Source: Pseudogemmobacter bohemicus (lineage in GTDB: Bacteria; Pseudomonadota; Alphaproteobacteria; Rhodobacterales; Rhodobacteraceae). From it: 64,000 nucleotides of DNA. The stretch spans positions 127,780-191,779 of the forward strand of contig NZ_QNHG01000001.1 of assembly GCF_003290025.1 (NCBI RefSeq), given 5' to 3'. The position numbers and the translations under genes were made by a program. Below, piece by piece: positions 22,141 through 44,035 of the stretch. The stretch's first letter is position 1; every line of letters begins with the position of its first letter. The notes under the pieces are model-generated. The model was not told the DNA's origin, did no database searches, and saw only the letters and a program-made list of their open reading frames with translations.

Positions 22141-22839
22141 CTACAGCCGCAGATCGGCCACCAGCGGCAGGTGATCCGAGGCGCGGCTGGCTTCCTGGTT
22201 GCGGAACACGCTGGCTTCTGCATCGGTGAAACGGTCGGAAATCGCGATACGGTCCAGCGCAAAGACCGGGTGGCGCGAATGCCAGGTCGGCCCGCCCGAG
22301 AGAATGCGGAACCGTTTCGACAGCCGCCCGAGCCCCACCTGCAACGAGCGTTCGTTGAAATCGCCGGCGATCAGCATGGCGGTGTCCGGCTCTTCCGGCA
22401 GCATCTCCAAAAGCGCCGAAAGCTGCTGGCGGCGTGAATGGCGCAAGAGCCCCAGATGCGCGCCGACCACGCGCAGCCGCTGGCCCCTCCGCTCCAGCAG
22501 GGCGGAAACCAGGCCGCGTGGCTCCAGCCCCGGCAGGTCGTGATGGCTGCGCGAGATCACCTGAAATCCCGGGGAAACCAGCAGCGCATTGCCGTGCCAG
22601 CCGAGACTGTCGCGGCCATGGTCGAAACGCACAGGATGCAGCCCTGTGCGGCGGAAGACCTCGGCCCCGTCAAAGACCGGGCGGCGCTGGCCTAGGCGCA
22701 GATCGGCCTCCTGCAAGGCCACCACATCGGCACCAAGGCCGGCAATCACCCGCAAAACCCGCGCCGGATCGCGTTTGCGGTCGGTGCCAAGCGCTTTGCG
22801 GATATTATAGCTGGCGATGCGCAGAGAGGTGTCGCTCAC
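22141..22839 (-). CDS. Endonuclease/exonuclease/phosphatase (EEP) family protein
   Basis: The product is 232 residues from a GTG start at 22839 that overlaps the stop codon of the cardiolipin synthase gene by four bases (GTGA). This coupling decides the start over longer in-frame options. Signatures are RIASYNIRKA, ADVVALQEADL (metal-binding Glu), GWHGNALLVS, IAGDFNE (Asp and Asn of the active site), LDRIAIS and ASDHLPLVADL (catalytic Asp-His). The fold covers nucleases, sphingomyelinases and phosphoinositide phosphatases. Pairing with a phospholipase-D-type enzyme suggests a lipid-phosphodiester role, by inference. Confidence 0.87.
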   Translation of the reverse strand: MSDTSLRIASYNIRKALGTDRKRDPARVLRVIAGLGADVVALQEADLRLGQRRPVFDGAEVFRRTGLHPVRFDHGRDSLGWHGNALLVSPGFQVISRSHHDLPGLEPRGLVSALLERRGQRLRVVGAHLGLLRHSRRQQLSALLEMLPEEPDTAMLIAGDFNERSLQVGLGRLSKRFRILSGGPTWHSRHPVFALDRIAISDRFTDAEASVFRNQEASRASDHLPLVADLRL

Positions 22840-24191
22840 AATATGGGGGCTCCGAGACGGAAGACGCCTTCGATCAGGCGCCGGAAGAAGCCCGGTCTGG
22901 GCAGGGAAGTGTCGCAATCGGGCAGCAGCCGGTCAAACCAGCGGCTGATTGCGGTGGTTGTGGCAGGGTCCCAGGCCATCACCGCCAGCTCGAAGTTCAG
23001 AAGCATCGAGCGCACGTCGAAATTGGCCGATCCGATCCAGCAGGCCTCGTCAATCAGGCCGGCTTTTGCATGCATCATGCCGGGGCGGAAGAAGTGAAAG
23101 CCGACCCCGGTGCGCGCCAGCGCCCGGATATAGGGTCCGCGCGCGAGGTCGGTGGTCCATTGGTTGGATTTCAGCGGCAGCAGGATGCGGACATCGACGC
23201 CGCTGCGTGCGGCCGTGGCCAGCGCCTGGGCCAGGGGATCGGTGGGCACGAAATAGGGCGTGGCGATCCAGACCCGCTTTTTCGCCCGGTAAATTGCCGC
23301 GACCAGGCCGTCATGCAGCACATCCTGCGGCTCATCCGGTCCGGCGGGGACCAGCTGCAACAGCGCCTCGCCCGCAGGCGCGACCGGAGGCGGCACCGGC
23401 TCGGGCAGCGGGTCGCCCGCGACCTCCCAGTCCGATGCGAAAACCGCGTTGAAACTGTCGATCACCGGGCCCTCGGCGGTAAAGCTCAGATCGACCCATT
23501 TGCCGGGTGGTGAGGCGAGGTAGTCATCGCCGACATTGCGCCCGCCGGCCCAGACGCGGGCGCAATCTGCGATCACCATCTTGCGGTGATTGCGCAGGTT
23601 GAGATGGGCGGTATCGGTCAGGTGATCCAGCGGCGAGAAATAGCGCAACTCGCCGCCGGCCTCGACAAAGGCCCTCAGCGCGCGGCGCGGGCGGGTATGA
23701 CTGCCCAGCCAATCGACCGAAAGCCGCACCTTAACCCCTTCATGCAGCTTGCGTTTCAGCTGATCAAGGAACCGCAGCCCGCTTTCATCCCGCGCCAGAA
23801 CATAAAGCAGGATATCAAGCCGGTCGCGCGCGCCGGCGATCACCTCATCGAGACCCGCCCGGGCATCTGCGGGCGTCTCATGCAGATGGATCCGGTTGCC
23901 CCCCACCGCCGGCGGCGCGCCGAGACTGTCGAAAATATGCGCAAGCGGTGGCGGCTCGGTCTCGGGCAGTGCCGGATGCGGCGAGAACCGGATTGCCGGA
24001 AAGCTGCGGCCCGATTTGCGAAACCCAAGGACCAGGAAGACCGGCACCGCCACATAGGGGACCATGATGATGAAGAGGATCCAGGCGGCCGAACTTTGCG
24101 GCGTGCGGCGCGGTTGCAGCGCCAGCACCATCGCGCTCGCAACCGCGAGGACGCCAAGCACGACAAGGAAATGTTCGAACAGGTAATACAT
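22836..24191 (-). CDS. cls: Cardiolipin synthase (phospholipase D superfamily)
   Basis: The product is 451 residues. Two N-terminal membrane helices (FLVVLGVLAVASAMVLAL and AWILFIIMVPYVAVPVFLVL) form the PLDc_N region. Two HKD motifs follow: NHRKMVIAD near residue 203 and MHAKAGLIDE near residue 372, each with a downstream Asn (GGRNVGDDY; GSANFDVRSM). This matches ClsA-type enzymes that join two phosphatidylglycerols, or PG and PE, at the inner membrane. It is translationally coupled to the EEP gene downstream. The start ATG at 24191 follows AGCC without a strong ribosome site. Confidence 0.9.
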   Translation of the reverse strand: MYYLFEHFLVVLGVLAVASAMVLALQPRRTPQSSAAWILFIIMVPYVAVPVFLVLGFRKSGRSFPAIRFSPHPALPETEPPPLAHIFDSLGAPPAVGGNRIHLHETPADARAGLDEVIAGARDRLDILLYVLARDESGLRFLDQLKRKLHEGVKVRLSVDWLGSHTRPRRALRAFVEAGGELRYFSPLDHLTDTAHLNLRNHRKMVIADCARVWAGGRNVGDDYLASPPGKWVDLSFTAEGPVIDSFNAVFASDWEVAGDPLPEPVPPPVAPAGEALLQLVPAGPDEPQDVLHDGLVAAIYRAKKRVWIATPYFVPTDPLAQALATAARSGVDVRILLPLKSNQWTTDLARGPYIRALARTGVGFHFFRPGMMHAKAGLIDEACWIGSANFDVRSMLLNFELAVMAWDPATTTAISRWFDRLLPDCDTSLPRPGFFRRLIEGVFRLGAPIL

Positions 24192-37532: not shown

Positions 37533-39584
37533 ATGACTGGACGCAATCCGTTGCGCGCTGCTCTGTTGAGCAGTTGCGCACTTCTTTTCCCCGTGCTGGC
37601 CCCCGTGCTGACCCCTGTGGCAGGCTTTGCCCAGGGGGTCGAACAGACCGAAAATCTCGGCACGATCATTCTTGACACCAAACGCGACGTTGCGACCGAT
37701 ACCGGCGTTGCGGTCACCACCATCGACCAGGAAGAGATGGATGACCGCCAGGCCTCGACCATCGCGGAGCTGATCTCCTCGGTGCCGGGTGTCACGCTGA
37801 TCAATGGTTCCACACCGCTGGGCGGCGGTATCAATATCCGCGGCTTCGGTGCCAGCACGGCCTATGGCGCCAACCAGAAGGTGATGGTCACCATCGACGG
37901 CGCGACCCAGGGCGGTGACGAGGTCTACCGGATCGGCACCCAGCTTTTCACCGATCCCGAGCTGTTCCGCAGTGTCTCGGTGATCCGCGGCACCATTGGC
38001 AGCTTTGAATTTGGCTCAGGCGTTGTGGGCGGCATCGTCCAGCTGGAGACCAAGGATGCCTCGGATTTCACCGGCGGCGAGATTGGCTGGAAATTCCGCC
38101 AGGGGCTGAACTTCGGCACCAATGGCGACGCCATCAGCTCGTCTTCGATCATTGCATGGCAGCCCACCGAGAACTTTGAACTTATGTTCAATTACGTCTG
38201 GCACAAGCAGGACGATCAGGAAGACGGTGATGGCAACCGGTTTGTCGATACCGGCTTCAAGGATCCGTCCTACGCGCTGGCCGCCAAATACACGTTCGGC
38301 GGCGACCGTTCGCAATATCTGCGCCTGTCGCTGGCTGATACCCAGAGCTCTGAGCGGGACGTGCCCTATGACCGTCTGAGCAGCGGCAGCAGCTTTGGTC
38401 GGGTGGATTCCGACAACCATTCCCGCACCGTCGCGCTGACCTATGGCTGGAACCCGGACGATAATGACCTGATCGACCTGAAGGTGATCCTCAGCTATGC
38501 GGATCTCGAGATGGACAACAGGGCGCTGACGCCAAGCTTTGGGTTTAACGATGCCCGTCTGCGCACCGAGACCACCAAGCTGACGGTGAAGAATACCGCG
38601 ATCTTCAACACCGGATCGGTCGCGCATGAGCTGCGCACCGGCATCGAATTCAGCCGCCGTGACCGTCTTGATGCGCCCTCGTCGCCGGGTGGCCGTGACA
38701 ATCGTGTGGCGGTCTTTGTGATCGACAAGATGGATTTCGGCAATGGGCTCACCGTGACCCCGGCGCTGCGTTACGAGACCCAGAATATCAAATATGTCGG
38801 TTCAACAGCGGCCTTTGCCGGCGAATATGACCATGATGAGCTTATGGGCGGTCTGGCGGCGCGCTACGAGTTCCAGAACGGGCTCGCTGTCTTTGCCAGC
38901 GGCGCCTACACTGTGGCACTGCCGATTTCGGACGATTTCGACGCGCAGAACAAGCTCAACGGCACCAAACGCTACAACTATATGGAGATGCCCGAAAAGG
39001 CCCGGACCTGGGAAATCGGCGCCTCCTATTCCGGTGCTGATGTCTTCGCAAGCGGGGACGCGCTCAGCCTGAAAGCCAACTTCTACACCACCGATAACTG
39101 GTCGGTGACCTCGCTTGCCTCCATTAAGGCGATTGAGGTCAGGGGCGTTGAGCTTGAGGCGGCCTATAGCCTTGGCAACGGGCTTTACGGCGAAATCGGT
39201 GCGAATATCACCGACGGCGATTCCCAGCTTTACAGCGATGACCGCTGGCTTGGCCGCTATAGCGAGACCCCGGCGGATGCGCTGCGTCTCGTGGTCGGCA
39301 AACGCTGGGACCGCGAACTTGATCTGAGCTGGGAAATGGTCGCGGCGAAGCGCTATGCCGACAACTCGATGACCTGCACCGCCACCCCCCCCACCCCATG
39401 CCCCATATCGGGCTTCGGCGTGCATAACCTGCGTGCAACTTACCGTCCGGAACAGGGAATCCTGGCGGGCGCCGAGCTGCGAGTCGGCATCGAGAACCTG
39501 TTTGACCGCGATTTCCGTCCGCGGCTGGCAACCCGCGATGCGCCGGGCCGGAACATCAAGTTCGGCATTTACAAGACGTTCTGA
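37533..39584 (+). CDS. TonB-dependent outer-membrane receptor (heme/hemoglobin or metal-chelate type)
   Basis: The product is 683 residues. A signal peptide (LLSSCALLFPVLAPVLTPVAGFA) is followed by the plug domain (VAVTTIDQEEMDDRQASTIA, SVPGVTLINGS, INIRGFGAS, VMVTIDGATQGGDEVYR, IRGTIGSFEFGSGVVGGIVQ). The beta-barrel ends with GIENLFDRDFRPR and a terminal aromatic Phe (IYKTF), as required for barrel assembly. I see no clear TonB box. Plug features resemble the hemoglobin/transferrin/HmuR class, but the ligand cannot be fixed. Three further plus-strand genes follow (EF-hand, DUF2271, PepSY), the usual companions of iron or metal-chelate receptors. Confidence 0.9.
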   Translation: MTGRNPLRAALLSSCALLFPVLAPVLTPVAGFAQGVEQTENLGTIILDTKRDVATDTGVAVTTIDQEEMDDRQASTIAELISSVPGVTLINGSTPLGGGINIRGFGASTAYGANQKVMVTIDGATQGGDEVYRIGTQLFTDPELFRSVSVIRGTIGSFEFGSGVVGGIVQLETKDASDFTGGEIGWKFRQGLNFGTNGDAISSSSIIAWQPTENFELMFNYVWHKQDDQEDGDGNRFVDTGFKDPSYALAAKYTFGGDRSQYLRLSLADTQSSERDVPYDRLSSGSSFGRVDSDNHSRTVALTYGWNPDDNDLIDLKVILSYADLEMDNRALTPSFGFNDARLRTETTKLTVKNTAIFNTGSVAHELRTGIEFSRRDRLDAPSSPGGRDNRVAVFVIDKMDFGNGLTVTPALRYETQNIKYVGSTAAFAGEYDHDELMGGLAARYEFQNGLAVFASGAYTVALPISDDFDAQNKLNGTKRYNYMEMPEKARTWEIGASYSGADVFASGDALSLKANFYTTDNWSVTSLASIKAIEVRGVELEAAYSLGNGLYGEIGANITDGDSQLYSDDRWLGRYSETPADALRLVVGKRWDRELDLSWEMVAAKRYADNSMTCTATPPTPCPISGFGVHNLRATYRPEQGILAGAELRVGIENLFDRDFRPRLATRDAPGRNIKFGIYKTF

Positions 39585-39678
39585 TCATCTCTCCGGACCG
39601 GCTGTCTCGGGATGGCCGGCCCGTTCTTTTCTTGCCGGAATCCCGGCCAGACCACAGCCAGAGGAACGGAGTCCCCCC

Positions 39679-40293
39679 ATGGCCGACCGCAGCAAAACCA
39701 CCCTGAGCCTCAGCCTCGCGCTGATTGCCGCGCTTTCCGGCGGCGCCTTCGCGCAAAGCGAAGAGACCAAACCGGCCGAGACCGCCACCAGGACCGACAA
39801 TCCCGGCGATGCCGCGCCAAAGCCCGGCCCTGCCGGCGGCCACAGTCAGCCGGCCTTTATTGCCTCTTACGACAGGGATGGCGATGGCAAGGTCTCGCTG
39901 GATGAGCTGATCGCGGTGAGGACCGAACGCCTTCAGGGCGCCGATAAGGATGGCGATGGCCGCTACAGCGAGGCCGAATATATCGCCGAATTCGAGGGCC
40001 GGCTGCGGGTGCAATATGCCGAACAGGGCCGCGAGGCCAGCGGAGAGCGCTTTGATGGCAGCCTGAAACAGGCTGGCGTGCGGTTCGCGCTGCTGGACCG
40101 TGACCGCGACGGCTTCCTGTCGCTGGAAGAGGATCTCGAATCCGCCCGCAAGACCTTTGCCCGCAATGACACCGATGGCGATGGTTTCGTGACCGCCGCC
40201 GATCCGAAGCCGGTGCGCGAGGATGACGGCAATGCCAAAAACGCCAATACCGGCGAAAAGAAGGACGAGAAAAAGGATGGTGCGGCGAACTGA
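39679..40293 (+). CDS. Exported protein with four EF-hand calcium-binding motifs
   Basis: The product is 204 residues from the ATG at 39679, preceded by AGAGGAACGGAG. A signal peptide (LSLSLALIAALSGGAFAQ) is followed by a Thr/Pro/Ala linker. Four DxDxDG-type loops come next: DRDGDGKVSLDE, DKDGDGRYSEAE, DRDRDGFLSLEE and DTDGDGFVTAAD. A charged Lys/Glu tail ends the protein. It is probably periplasmic and binds calcium. It lies between a TonB receptor and a DUF2271 gene in the same direction, so a helper role in uptake or in sensing divalent metals is plausible. Function is not known. Confidence 0.87.
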   Translation: MADRSKTTLSLSLALIAALSGGAFAQSEETKPAETATRTDNPGDAAPKPGPAGGHSQPAFIASYDRDGDGKVSLDELIAVRTERLQGADKDGDGRYSEAEYIAEFEGRLRVQYAEQGREASGERFDGSLKQAGVRFALLDRDRDGFLSLEEDLESARKTFARNDTDGDGFVTAADPKPVREDDGNAKNANTGEKKDEKKDGAAN

Positions 40294-40380
40294 TCGCTGC
40301 CCGTTCTTCGGCCTGTGGCGGGTGACCGGCTTCCCACCCGCCACAGGTTTTTCCGCTGCTTCCCGCGCCTGGTGGTGATG

Positions 40381-40923
40381 ATGACTGAAGAAACGAACCG
40401 TCCGGCCTCCGGGGCCGCCGCGACCCTGGCCGCAACGCTTGCGCTGGTCGCCGGCCCGGCTTTGGCGGGTGGGCTGGAATTCGAGGTGACGCTGCCCCAG
40501 CCCGAGGCCAGCCCGGCCTATCGCCCCTATCTCGCCGCCTGGATCGAAGAGCCGGGCAGCAAGGATATCCGTGGCACCGTCGCCGTCTGGTATGACACCA
40601 GGCTGCGCGACAATCTTGGCCGCGGTTTTCTGCGCGATCTGCGCAGCTGGTGGCGGGCCGAGGGCGAAAAGCTCGATCTGCCGGCCGACGGTCTCAGCGG
40701 CCCGACCCGGGGGCCGGGGACGCATAAGGTCGCGGTCTCGCCCGCCAATGCCGCCCTGACCGGGCTGACGGCGGGGCATTATGTCCTCGCGGTCGAGGTC
40801 TCGCGTGAGGATGGTGGCCGCGAGACACTGCGTGCGCCCTTCAGCTGGGGGGCCGCAGAGAACAGTGCCGAGGCCCTGGGAGAACGCGAGATCACCCGGC
40901 TCAGGGTGACGGTGAAACCCTGA
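40381..40923 (+). CDS. DUF2271-domain periplasmic protein
   Basis: The product is 180 residues. ATG codons at 40378 and 40381 are adjacent; I use 40381. The N-terminus (ASGAAATLAATLALVAGPALAGG) is a signal peptide. LEFEVTLPQPEASPAYRPYL, AAWIEEPGSKDIRGTVAVWY, LRDLRSWWRA and HYVLAVEVSREDGGRETLR are DUF2271 signatures. DUF2271 genes usually sit beside PepSY-helix proteins and ApbE in iron/flavin reduction loci. The stop codon TGA forms part of the ribosome site (TGAGGAGGG) of the next gene, so translation is coupled. Confidence 0.85.
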   Translation: MTEETNRPASGAAATLAATLALVAGPALAGGLEFEVTLPQPEASPAYRPYLAAWIEEPGSKDIRGTVAVWYDTRLRDNLGRGFLRDLRSWWRAEGEKLDLPADGLSGPTRGPGTHKVAVSPANAALTGLTAGHYVLAVEVSREDGGRETLRAPFSWGAAENSAEALGEREITRLRVTVKP

Positions 40924-40933
40924 GGAGGGCCGC

Positions 40934-41773
40934 ATGGCCGGCAATAATCCGATGACGGAGACTAGAGGGCGCAGCTTCTGGCTGCGTCAGTTCCGTCTGT
41001 GGCACTGGGTCTCGGCTGCGATCAGCCTTGCCGGGATGTTCCTGTTCGCGGTGACCGGCCTGACGCTGAACAATGCCGGGCTCTTTGCCTCGCGTCCCGA
41101 GACGGTCGAGCTGACAGCCATGCTGCCGGCAGATCTGAGGGCAGAGATCGCCGCGATGCCCGAAGAGACCGATGCGCCGGTCCCGGCGGCCATTGCCGGC
41201 TGGGCGGCGGAGGAGTTCCGGGTCAGCCTGACCGGCCGCCCGACCGAGACCACGCCCGACGAGGTCTATATCGCTATGCCGCGCCCCGGCGGCGATGCCT
41301 GGATGGCCATCGACCGGGCCAGCGGCGATGTGACCTGGAGCGTGAGCGATGGCGGCTGGCTCGCCTGGCTCAACGATCTGCATAAAGGCCGCAATGCCGG
41401 GCCGGTCTGGGCCTGGTTCATCGACCTGCTGGCGGTGGCCTGCATCATCTTCAACCGCGCGGTTCCGGCCTCGCTGTTCAATGGTGCAGACTATTACCAC
41501 AGCGGCGGTCCGGTCCTGAAACAGGGCGAGGTCCCGGCAATCTTGCAAACGGGTGAGCATGTTCTGAGCCGCGCGCAGGTGCAGCAACTGAACTCGGGCG
41601 GCGGGATCGGCGGAACTACGGACGGGGGCGGCTATCAGCCGGGCAAGCAGATCCAGAACAATATCAACATGACCGTGAACACACCGAACGCGGATTCTTT
41701 CCGCAAGTCACAAAAACAGATTCTGGCAGATGCGGACCGGGCTGGACGGCGGGCCAGCCGCTCGAACGACTAA
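40934..41773 (+). CDS. Chimeric ORF: truncated PepSY-helix membrane protein fused to phage tail tape-measure C-terminus
   Basis: The open frame encodes 279 residues and starts after GAGGAGGG. Residues 1-173 are a PepSY-associated membrane protein. They contain a first helix WHWVSAAISLAGMFLFAVTG, the periplasmic PepSY region (MPRPGGDAWMAIDRASGDVT) and LNDLHKGRNAGPVWAWFIDL, the beginning of the next helix. That helix breaks off at CIIF (41452). The rest, RAVPASLFNGADYYHSGG, then LKQGEVPAILQTGEHVLSR and VNTPNADSFRKSQKQILADA, is typical of the C-terminal end of siphophage tail tape-measure proteins and not of PepSY proteins. The join is in frame. It looks like a deletion between the host gene and an adjacent prophage. 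The product is probably non-functional in reduction. Confidence 0.82.
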   Translation: MAGNNPMTETRGRSFWLRQFRLWHWVSAAISLAGMFLFAVTGLTLNNAGLFASRPETVELTAMLPADLRAEIAAMPEETDAPVPAAIAGWAAEEFRVSLTGRPTETTPDEVYIAMPRPGGDAWMAIDRASGDVTWSVSDGGWLAWLNDLHKGRNAGPVWAWFIDLLAVACIIFNRAVPASLFNGADYYHSGGPVLKQGEVPAILQTGEHVLSRAQVQQLNSGGGIGGTTDGGGYQPGKQIQNNINMTVNTPNADSFRKSQKQILADADRAGRRASRSND

Positions 41774-42144
41774 CCCGGCTCCCGCCGGGCTGGGGGCGTA
41801 TATGCCTCGGGCCGCATCGGCCTCGGGCCAGATCGAGCGAAACAGTATCGAGGCGCTGCGGTGAGGCCGCGTCTCAATCAGGGGCCGCAACGTCTGAGGG
41901 GGCGCTGCGGCCCCTCTGTGTTTTGTGCCTCACGCGCTGTGCTAGCGGCAGTCGCCCCAGCGCCTCAGAGGGCGCAGGAACGCTGTCATCTCCGGCGTCA
42001 GCCGGATCTTCCCAAATGCTCAGAACTCCCGCATCATACAGGGAATCGAACAACAGCCTGAGAAAAACGATTTGTGGGTTCATTTGTGGGCCATTTATCA
42101 AGTCTATCGTAAGTGACTGAAATATATGGCTTATTTTGCAGAAG
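41453..42144. mobile_element. Probable prophage remnant between the pepSY junction and tRNA-Glu
   Basis: It begins with the coding end of a tape-measure protein (to 41773). A CCCGGC/GCCGGG hairpin follows directly (41774-41790). The next 350 bp carry no recognisable gene and end in an AT-rich tract (about 42055-42144) abutting the 3' end of tRNA-Glu, a standard phage attachment location. I found no integrase domain and no second copy of the tRNA end within the window. A 75-codon minus-strand frame (41874-42101) was not recognisable. Confidence 0.6.
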
Positions 42145-42219
42145 TGGCAGCCCGTAGGGGAGTCGAACCCCTCTTTTCAGGTTGAAAACCTGACGTCCTA
42201 ACCGATAGACGAACGGGCC
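42145..42219 (-). tRNA. tRNA-Glu (anticodon UUC)
   Basis: The minus strand reads GGCCCGTTCGTCTATCGGTT at the 5' end. The anticodon arm is TCAGG-TTTTCAA-CCTGA (anticodon TTC). The T arm is GAGGGGTTCGACTCCCCTA, and the acceptor 3' strand is ACGGGCT with G73 and an encoded CCA (75 nt). The acceptor stem pairs with one G-U at position 1-72. The 3' end faces the probable prophage remnant; recJ follows on the 5' side. Confidence 0.96.
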
Positions 42220-42286: not shown

Positions 42287-44035
42287 TCAATCCGCCGCGG
42301 CGGCATCATCGAGGCGCAGCTGTACCCTTGATTTTCCGCCCCAGCTGTTGATCTCCAGCCGCCCGGCCAGGTGGAAAAGCCGGTGGCCGCTATTCTCCAG
42401 CGGTGCGCCAAGCGGGCCGTCAAAGGCGCCGAATGCCATGATTTCCGGCCCCTGCGCCTGGCTGCGGAGGGTAAGTTTCAGATGCGAGGCCCCGATCCGG
42501 CGTCCCTGGACCGCGACCGAGGGAATCACAAAGCGCGGCGCGGGGGCGGAAGCGCCAAAAGGTCCGGCCTGGGCGATCTGCTCGACGAATCCGACGCTTG
42601 CGGCTTCGGGCAGCACGATACTGTCGATCCGCAGCGCTTCCGGGCCGGACCCGCCCGCCCCCTGCCGCGCCAGCAATTCGCCAAGCCGCGCCATGGCAGG
42701 CTCCAGCATCGACCGGGTCAGGCTGAGACCGGCAGCCATCTTATGACCTCCGCCTTTCTCAAGCAGGCCCTCGCCGGCGATCCTGTGAACCGAGGCTCCC
42801 AGATCCACCCCGGCCACCGAACGGGCTGATCCTTTCCCATGGTCACCCTCAAAGCCGATTACCACCGCCGGCCGGCCGGTCGCCTCTTTCAGCCGCGCCG
42901 CTACGATCCCGACCACGCCGGGATGCCAGCCATCCCCGGCCGCCCATACCAGCGGTCCATCAGTGCCGCGCGCCTCGGCCTGGGCCAGAGCCTCTTCGCG
43001 CACCCGGTCGGTGATCTCGCGGCGCTCGGTGTTCAGCCCATCCAGGCGCAGGGCCAGCGCCTGGGCCTCGGCTTCGCTGGCGGTTGCCAGCAGGCGCGCG
43101 CCGAGATCCGCCTCGCCGATGCGGCCGCCAGCATTGATCCTCGGCCCCAGCAGAAAGCCGAGCGCATAGGCGGTCGGCGCCTGGTCCATGCGGGCAATAT
43201 CGGCCAGCGCCCGAAGGCCTGCCCGCTCGCGCCGCGCCATCACCCGGAGCCCCTGGCGCACGAAGGCGCGGTTGACCCCGGTGAGGGGGGCCACGTCCGC
43301 CACTGTCGCCAGCGCCACCAGGTCGAGATAGGTCAGTAACTCCGGCCCCTTGCGCCCGGCCTCGCGCAGCTGGCGCCCGGCTTCGACCAGCATCAGGAAC
43401 ACTACCGCGGCCGCGCAGAGATGGGCCAGACTGCCATCCTCGTCCTGGCGGTTCGGGTTCACCACGGCCAGCGCCCCGGGTAGCGTTTCACCGCCCAGGT
43501 GATGGTCGAGGATCACCACATCGGCGGGTGCCGCCGCCGCGACGGGCTCATGGCTGAGCGTACCGCAATCGACACAAAGGATCAGCGTGTGATCCCGGGC
43601 GAGCGCCTGCATGGCGGGGATATTGGGGCCGTAACCCTCGTCGATACGGTCGGGGATGTAGAGCGTCGCCTGATGCCCCATCTCGCGCAGCCAGGTCAGC
43701 AGTAAGGCCGCCGAGGCGCCGCCATCGACATCGTAATCGGCAAAAACCGCGATTCTCTCGCGCTGCTCCAGCGCGGTGAGGAAACGCCTTGCCGCTTTTT
43801 CCATATCCTTCAGGCGGCGCGGGTCGGGCAGCAGGTCGCGCAGCTGCGGGTTCAGGAAGGCCTGTGCCTCATCGGCAGCGATGCCCCGGGCGGTCAGGAT
43901 ACGGCAAAGCGGCAAGGGCAGGCGGGTCTGCTGACCCATCGCCTCGGCCAGACGCTCCTGCGCCTCATCCGGCCCCACCCAGCGGCGCCCGCTCAGCGAG
44001 GCCGCGACACCCAGAAATGCTTGCTCTTGTGACAT
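42287..44035 (-). CDS. recJ: Single-stranded-DNA-specific exonuclease RecJ
   Basis: The 582-residue enzyme degrades single-stranded DNA 5' to 3' in recombination and mismatch repair. Motif I is VFADYDVDGGASAALL (about residues 95-110), CVDCGT is motif II, the DHH motif is VILDHHLGG, and the DHHA1 part holds GPRINAGGRIGEADLG, SARSVAGVDLG and KGGGHKMAAGLSL. All metal ligands appear intact. It follows glpX and hom in the same direction, an order I know from Rhodobacteraceae. The 184 bp between glpX and recJ are filled by hairpins and repeat copies, so recJ may have its own promoter. Confidence 0.95.
   Translation of the reverse strand: MSQEQAFLGVAASLSGRRWVGPDEAQERLAEAMGQQTRLPLPLCRILTARGIAADEAQAFLNPQLRDLLPDPRRLKDMEKAARRFLTALEQRERIAVFADYDVDGGASAALLLTWLREMGHQATLYIPDRIDEGYGPNIPAMQALARDHTLILCVDCGTLSHEPVAAAAPADVVILDHHLGGETLPGALAVVNPNRQDEDGSLAHLCAAAVVFLMLVEAGRQLREAGRKGPELLTYLDLVALATVADVAPLTGVNRAFVRQGLRVMARRERAGLRALADIARMDQAPTAYALGFLLGPRINAGGRIGEADLGARLLATASEAEAQALALRLDGLNTERREITDRVREEALAQAEARGTDGPLVWAAGDGWHPGVVGIVAARLKEATGRPAVVIGFEGDHGKGSARSVAGVDLGASVHRIAGEGLLEKGGGHKMAAGLSLTRSMLEPAMARLGELLARQGAGGSGPEALRIDSIVLPEAASVGFVEQIAQAGPFGASAPAPRFVIPSVAVQGRRIGASHLKLTLRSQAQGPEIMAFGAFDGPLGAPLENSGHRLFHLAGRLEINSWGGKSRVQLRLDDAAAAD

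Follow-up and report, generated by a model that had tools for sequence, protein, structure and literature searches.

How does a gene that starts out coding for a PepSY membrane protein come to end as the tail of a phage tape-measure protein? The open reading frame that raises this question lies at 40934..41773 (+ strand) of the window, the whole 64,000-nucleotide stretch of Pseudogemmobacter bohemicus DNA analyzed here; positions are those of the window unless a contig is named.

A chimeric reading frame

The frame runs for 279 codons from an ATG preceded by GAGGAGG, so the good ribosome site and the open frame across the join that an earlier, sequence-only reading had described are both present, and it encodes a 279-aa protein. 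The host part (40934..41452, +) supplies residues 1-173 of a PepSY_TM_like_2 protein, comprising the first helix, the periplasmic domain, and the first part of helix 2. The phage part (41457..41773, +) supplies the C-terminal ~100 residues of a tape-measure protein in their native frame. Between them, the limit of blastn homology and an alignment of the junction place the breakpoint at 41453..41456 (+). The protein reads ...VACIIF up to residue 173, which ends at 41452, and then continues as NRAVPASLF...

Profile searches divide the protein in the same way. The Pfam family PF16357 covers residues 15-174 with profile positions 1-160 of 197 (E 4.8e-54), and PHROG tape-measure families together span residues 173-278. 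One of these, PHROG 9807, matches residues 176-278 through its extreme C-terminus (positions 1873-1968 of 1972, E 2.2e-11). The matches thus meet near residue 174, as expected from the in-frame fusion at 41452 that the sequence-only reading had proposed. Because PepSY matches stop and tape-measure matches begin at nearly the same point, we conclude that the frame is a host-prophage chimera joined at residue 173/174.

To survey relatives, the chimera was searched as a protein against 100 genomes (its own and 99 relatives, E 0.001), and 22 non-self matches were listed. Seven are strong PepSY matches that end at residues 174-176, twelve are tape-measure matches that begin at residues 171-175, and three are weak PepSY matches within residues 41-165. 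None of the 22 reaches more than 3 residues past the join. Homologues carrying both halves as one conserved protein had been named beforehand as the observation that would speak against a fusion; with both halves in 0 of the 22 listed non-self matches, we reject a conserved two-domain protein. Looser tblastn alignments extend past the join in plasmid records, namely three Pseudoalteromonas matches (residues 17 to 204 or 217), one from Deinococcus ficus (14-182), and, from the phage side, one from Paracoccus aminovorans (156-263). The same is true of locus L009 (13-204), whose frame is itself an ordinary PepSY protein with FIH at its end. We also reject an artefact of frameshift or readthrough, as the phage part is in its native frame. 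The join was found in one genome only, and we found no report of a fusion between PepSY and tape-measure proteins in the open-access literature.

Hydropathy analysis gives two segments in the chimera compared with three in the PepSY protein of a same-genus genome, G007. The third helix is deleted, and the second runs into phage sequence with its hydropathy roughly kept relative to intact proteins. In a structure model of the chimera (five sequences, mean pLDDT 63.7), the periplasmic domain is well predicted and a helix at 157-189 is continuous through the join, while residues 184-253 fall below pLDDT 50.

The gene row and its intact relatives

Upstream of the chimera on the + strand, the same row contains genes for a TonB-dependent receptor (37533..39584), an EF-hand protein (39433..40293, with its true start probably further in), and a DUF2271 protein, the periplasmic partner (40315..40923, PF10029). 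To the right of the break, a gene at 42287..44035 (- strand) serves as host marker; we take it to be recJ, judging by its sequence rather than by a family search.

Passages of Meheust et al. (2021, PMC8238504) link iron reduction and uptake to PepSY-like proteins that have three helices and occur with ApbE and DUF2271, and according to passages of a second paper (PMC12004947), insertions in a row of this kind in Caulobacter, the locus CCNA_03155-03159, reduce fitness in the presence of EDTA. As in the systems described there, a PF16357 protein occurs here with DUF2271 and a TonB receptor, and sister species add ApbE and a flavodoxin/NAD-type protein. Unlike the systems in those passages, the PepSY protein of P. 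bohemicus is cut after residue 173 and its row contains neither ApbE nor a reductase. The DUF2271 flavinylation site also differs, reading SGPT (40696-40707) instead of [S/T]GA[S/T].

The chimera still counts as PepSY-like in the sense of matching PF03929 or PF16357, though only over the profile positions given above, and it does not have three helices. No apbE lies in its cluster. A cytosolic electron donor, an NAD-binding reductase, is absent from the row (the search of the rest of the genome was at the DNA level). The SGPT motif is shared with G007, G012, and G001; it reads TGPT in G008 and SGAT or TGAT in six of six more distant loci, and it is not visible in the G004 gene, which is cut. 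Decay of this site after loss of ApbE is rejected, since sister species with ApbE have SGPT too. By analogy with the published systems, the row probably had a role in periplasmic electron transfer for iron uptake.

Comparison within the genus defines what is missing. By blastn, homology of the window to the same-genus genomes G007, G001, G012, and G008 stops at exactly 41456, and homology to G004 stops at 41478. Collinearity with the first three is long up to 41456 and restarts at 42136-42141, the 3' end of a tRNA-Glu gene. All three have a whole pepSY of 211-213 aa ending in FIH, in line with the intact gene of about 200 or more residues that the sequence-only reading had suggested looking for, and the host part of the chimera is 76-78% identical to them. 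In G007 the protein continues beyond the breakpoint as TLTGFGLLWMHAKLRPATWPLGWASFALPLIIALLFIH, followed by a stop. That species with an intact gene lose homology precisely at the join also bears out the earlier suggestion that a host-prophage event lies behind the chimera.

The deleted end is a conserved one. A third-helix end with terminal FIH occurs in 11 of 11 intact homologues examined (five same-genus, two same-class, and four named records). These homologues have three invariant histidines, corresponding to residues 24 and 150 of the chimera and to the C-terminal position, and the third is absent from the chimera. Over the residue types that were checked, the host part keeps 28 of 28 invariant positions and the sequence after the join 2 of 6.

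On the 3' side of pepSY, the three relatives share the order apbE, flavodoxin-type reductase gene, tRNA-Lys. The interval measures 17.1 kb in G007 and 11.1 kb in G012, against 0.68 kb in P. bohemicus; the two parts of the G001 interval lie on different contigs. The apbE gene matches PF02424 in G007 and G001 and was assigned by similarity in G012, where it changes frame near residue 227 (L043/L044) and may be lost in that species or affected by a sequence error. The reductase gene matches Flavodoxin_1 in G007 and Flavodoxin_1 plus NAD_binding_1 in G001, and was recognized by sequence in G012. The P. bohemicus locus has therefore lost the end of the PepSY protein, from partway through helix 2 to the invariant C-terminal histidine and with helix 3 included, as well as the row's ApbE and reductase.

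A second intact copy of the PepSY gene or row elsewhere in the genome was rejected after protein, DNA, and PF16357 searches, and the chimera is the sole PF16357 match. The G007 reductase gene (codon 68 onward) has no DNA match in the P. bohemicus genome. The only other ApbE found there is 39% identical and lies in a cluster that we call Rnf-like from its gene order. The cold-shock gene region of the missing interval (22478-23303 of the G007 interval) has a DNA match at C3:600514-601312 (78%), and shorter DNA matches to sequence further along the interval lie on contigs C3, C8, C1, C2, and C4; all of these may be either paralogues or moved copies.

Judged from its gene content, the row is most likely without functional electron transfer, because helix 3, the C-terminal histidine, and the electron-supplying partners are all missing. 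The sequence-only reading had suggested that the event disabled a reductase-like partner of the locus. This is very likely correct, and the damage includes the row's apbE and flavodoxin-type reductase gene along with the third helix.

Prophage remnants and tRNA genes

The tRNA-Glu (TTC) gene at which the relatives' homology restarts lies at 42145..42219 (- strand). An integrase gene adjoins it in G007, G012, and G001; all three integrases match PF00589, they are 29-44% identical to each other, and that of G001 is split in two open reading frames. The G007 tRNA-Glu end is repeated exactly over 20 nt at a distance of 8.2 kb, which marks an island. Whereas this island has both an integrase and a duplicated attachment core, no integrase match was found in 41457-42144 of the window, and no repeat of the tRNA-Glu end beyond chance was found in the window. 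On these sequences, tRNA-Glu is a mobile-element integration hotspot used by three different integrases in three species. Host-prophage deletion fusions occur at tRNA attachment hotspots, and as in known cases a decayed prophage end lies beside a tRNA gene and a host gene is cut. Unlike those cases, the join here happens in frame and a second tRNA gene, tRNA-Lys, has been relocated too. Host-prophage damage of this kind is ordinary; the relocated tRNA-Lys is unusual.

The nearest relative found for the phage part is a 1081-aa protein of genome G433, 63% identical over the last ~100 residues. In a search for the source phage, viral contigs yielded one locus (57% over 41 residues), and 79 phage records had a match, two of which reach at least 80% query coverage, at 33-34%. 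Among 394 genomes of the family, 78 had matches at 1e-4 (P. bohemicus included), with G433 at 63% followed by G393 at 51%. The likeness to tape-measure proteins (PHROG 9807 and the G433 protein) is confined to these last residues in their native frame; the rest of such a protein, with its Tape_meas_lam_C part, is absent from the window. Nor is there a full-length tape-measure gene among tail genes, as the nearest neighbours are the DUF2271 gene and, past tRNA-Glu, recJ. In G433, the tape-measure gene is directly followed by a convergent integrase gene (PF00589) and then by tRNA-Pro.

A stretch of 365 nt (41774..42138, no strand assigned), presumably the right end of a prophage remnant, separates the tape-measure stop from the point where tRNA-side homology begins. 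Across the 100 genomes this stretch has short matches only, of at most 35 nt. It contains a terminator-like hairpin at 41898-41915 and, near its tRNA end, two copies of ATTTGTGGG at 42070-42090, 12 nt apart. The pair is possibly an integrase arm site. Tried as an attachment-arm motif, the 21-nt stretch had no match in viral contigs, and the 7 of 149 loci that match it are all copies of this same window stretch. An integrase remnant in 41457-42144 was rejected, with only chance-level matches to the G433 integrase. Taken together, the tape-measure end, the 365 nt, and tRNA-Glu would represent the right end of a G433-type prophage lacking its integrase.

In the three sister species, tRNA-Lys(TTT) lies ~3 kb downstream of pepSY. 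Searching the P. bohemicus genome with the missing G007 interval recovered tRNA-Lys plus 42 nt upstream, at 98% identity, on another contig (C4:406436-406560). There, within C4:406478-407539 (L116:6478-7539), it stands together with an integrase C-terminal fragment, recognized by its sequence, and a fragment from the middle of a tape-measure gene. Residues 700-760 of the G433 tape-measure protein align at C4:407345-407527, after the integrase fragment, and this piece and the one at the pepSY join both match the G433 protein at 63-67%. No further close tRNA-Lys copy appeared in the genome at E 1e-10 (23 of 214 candidates scored); the copy was therefore probably on C4 before or at the time the old place was lost.

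The C4 site is itself complex. The sequence to the left of this tRNA-Lys has a different location in G007 and G012, and in G001 it is on a separate contig. Where G001 has 1.2 kb, P. bohemicus has 45 kb of elements (C4:404763-449800): a Type ISP restriction fragment (PF18135), tRNA-Lys, phage fragments, an integrase (PF00589), and further phage genes that include head-decoration and tail-fibre genes and are flanked by exact 46-nt copies at C4:410424 and 449801. In another genome (G005:C5, L143), which has no PepSY match and no PepSY row, the left neighbourhood is joined directly to tRNA-Lys and to the C4 flank in reverse, which indicates that the region was rearranged more than once in the genus. 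The position of tRNA-Lys beside the left neighbourhood is presumably the older state and the move to C4 derived. The sequence-only reading had spoken of a deletion. Sequence has indeed been lost at the locus, but the event was not only local, because tRNA-Lys and a second tape-measure piece are now on C4.

Origin of the chimera and constraint on the row

We consider a host-prophage rearrangement with loss of a segment to be the best explanation, with a probability of roughly 0.85 for the whole account, from the proposed ancestor through decay and relocation to a dead system. In the order and mechanism that we infer, loss of function included, an ancestral PepSY-type flavin-based electron-transfer row (TonB receptor, EF-hand protein, DUF2271, PepSY, ApbE, and flavodoxin/NAD-type reductase) would have adjoined tRNA-Lys and tRNA-Glu, with mobile elements inserting at the latter. 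A G433-type prophage would have decayed near this row. A rearrangement would then have joined pepSY codon 173 to the last ~100 tape-measure codons, so that the locus lost apbE, the reductase gene, and the end of pepSY along with most of the prophage, while tRNA-Lys and another tape-measure piece would have ended up on C4. The in-frame join was probably luck, at one chance in three. Its product, if made, would keep helix 1 and the periplasmic domain, perhaps together with a patched helix 2, and would lack helix 3.

Such a rearrangement could have taken two courses. We lean slightly toward two unrelated events, in which an island moved or copied tRNA-Lys to C4 and a simple deletion followed later at the old place. 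The position and orientation of tRNA-Lys vary in the genus (reversed and next to the C4 flank in G005, near pepSY in G007, G012, and G001) and several elements occupy the C4 site, but the same rare kind of tape-measure sequence at both places would then reflect coincidence or two related prophages. The other course is aberrant excision in the manner of lambda gal/bio. In its favour, C4 has tRNA-Lys, the integrase fragment, and tape-measure residues 705-764 (G433 numbering) next to one another, the pepSY join has residues about 983-1081, the orientations are as the model requires, and both pieces match the G433 protein at 63-67%. A single illegitimate recombination of pepSY with the tape-measure gene would have left the fusion behind in the chromosome and released a circle carrying the pepSY end, apbE, the reductase gene, tRNA-Lys, the integrase, and the front of the tape-measure gene; this circle would then have inserted again on C4 and decayed. 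We nevertheless find this course doubtful: C4:385001-480000 contains no pepSY-end, apbE, or reductase DNA, the reciprocal junction was not found, tape-measure residues 765-982 were found at neither place, and the C4 region also contains other elements.

An assembly error joining two unrelated places, which the sequence-only reading had ranked as the main alternative, is still an alternative but a very improbable one. The join lies inside a 1.66-Mb contig, and no repeat was found that could have caused it: the usual cause of a misjoin is missing because no second copy of the phage-side DNA or of the fused protein was found in the genome (one weak tail match, E 0.03). The phage frame is also intact across the join, and the presence of the missing tRNA-Lys amid phage debris on C4 is an independent trace of the event. 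We give similarly little credence to the idea that the chimera is useful as a new protein, anchored in the membrane as a PepSY sensor or scaffold and bearing a cytoplasmic tail of phage origin. The open frame with its ribosome site, the intact upstream genes, an N-terminal part without decay and with every invariant position that was checked kept, and a second helix of roughly preserved hydropathy, predicted through the join, would all suit it. Set against these are the poorly modelled tail, the lost partners, and an occurrence in one genome only, and we found no positive support for the membrane-anchored product that the sequence-only reading had also entertained. Were the fusion expressed and kept, an aberrant prophage event would have created a new gene in a single step and also displaced what seems to be the genome's sole tRNA-Lys(UUU) gene, a prospect we regard as remote.

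The locus shows at good resolution how a mobile-element hotspot can destroy a host system next to it. With a single breakpoint, a predicted pathway of iron reduction lost the end of its membrane anchor, its reductase, and the enzyme that attaches flavin, and in the same lineage a tRNA-Lys gene was relocated with phage debris. The fused frame left behind could well be labelled a normal PepSY protein by automatic annotation.

The chimera's N-terminal part contains no inactivating change, and from this lack of decay the break may be recent; the intact N-terminal part also leaves some room for continued use. We also compared pairwise dN/dS, with branches pooled, between each window gene and G007, G001, and G012 and then among those relatives. 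For the PepSY part the values were 0.22-0.28 against the relatives and 0.13-0.17 among them; for DUF2271, 0.13-0.17 and 0.08-0.10; for the TonB receptor, 0.33-0.35 and 0.08-0.15; and for the EF-hand gene, 0.29-0.43 and 0.27-0.46. Outside the row, the gene to its left gave 0.14-0.16 against 0.08-0.11, recJ 0.06-0.07 against 0.09-0.11, and a gene that we take to be glpX 0.03 against 0.01-0.04. Because a gene outside the row is raised as well, these values would be at most a weak hint of relaxed constraint on the row and give no date for the break. The TonB receptor is 59-62% identical to its counterparts in sister species, compared with 69-98% for the other genes compared, and is perhaps an exchanged allele or a gene under relaxed constraint.
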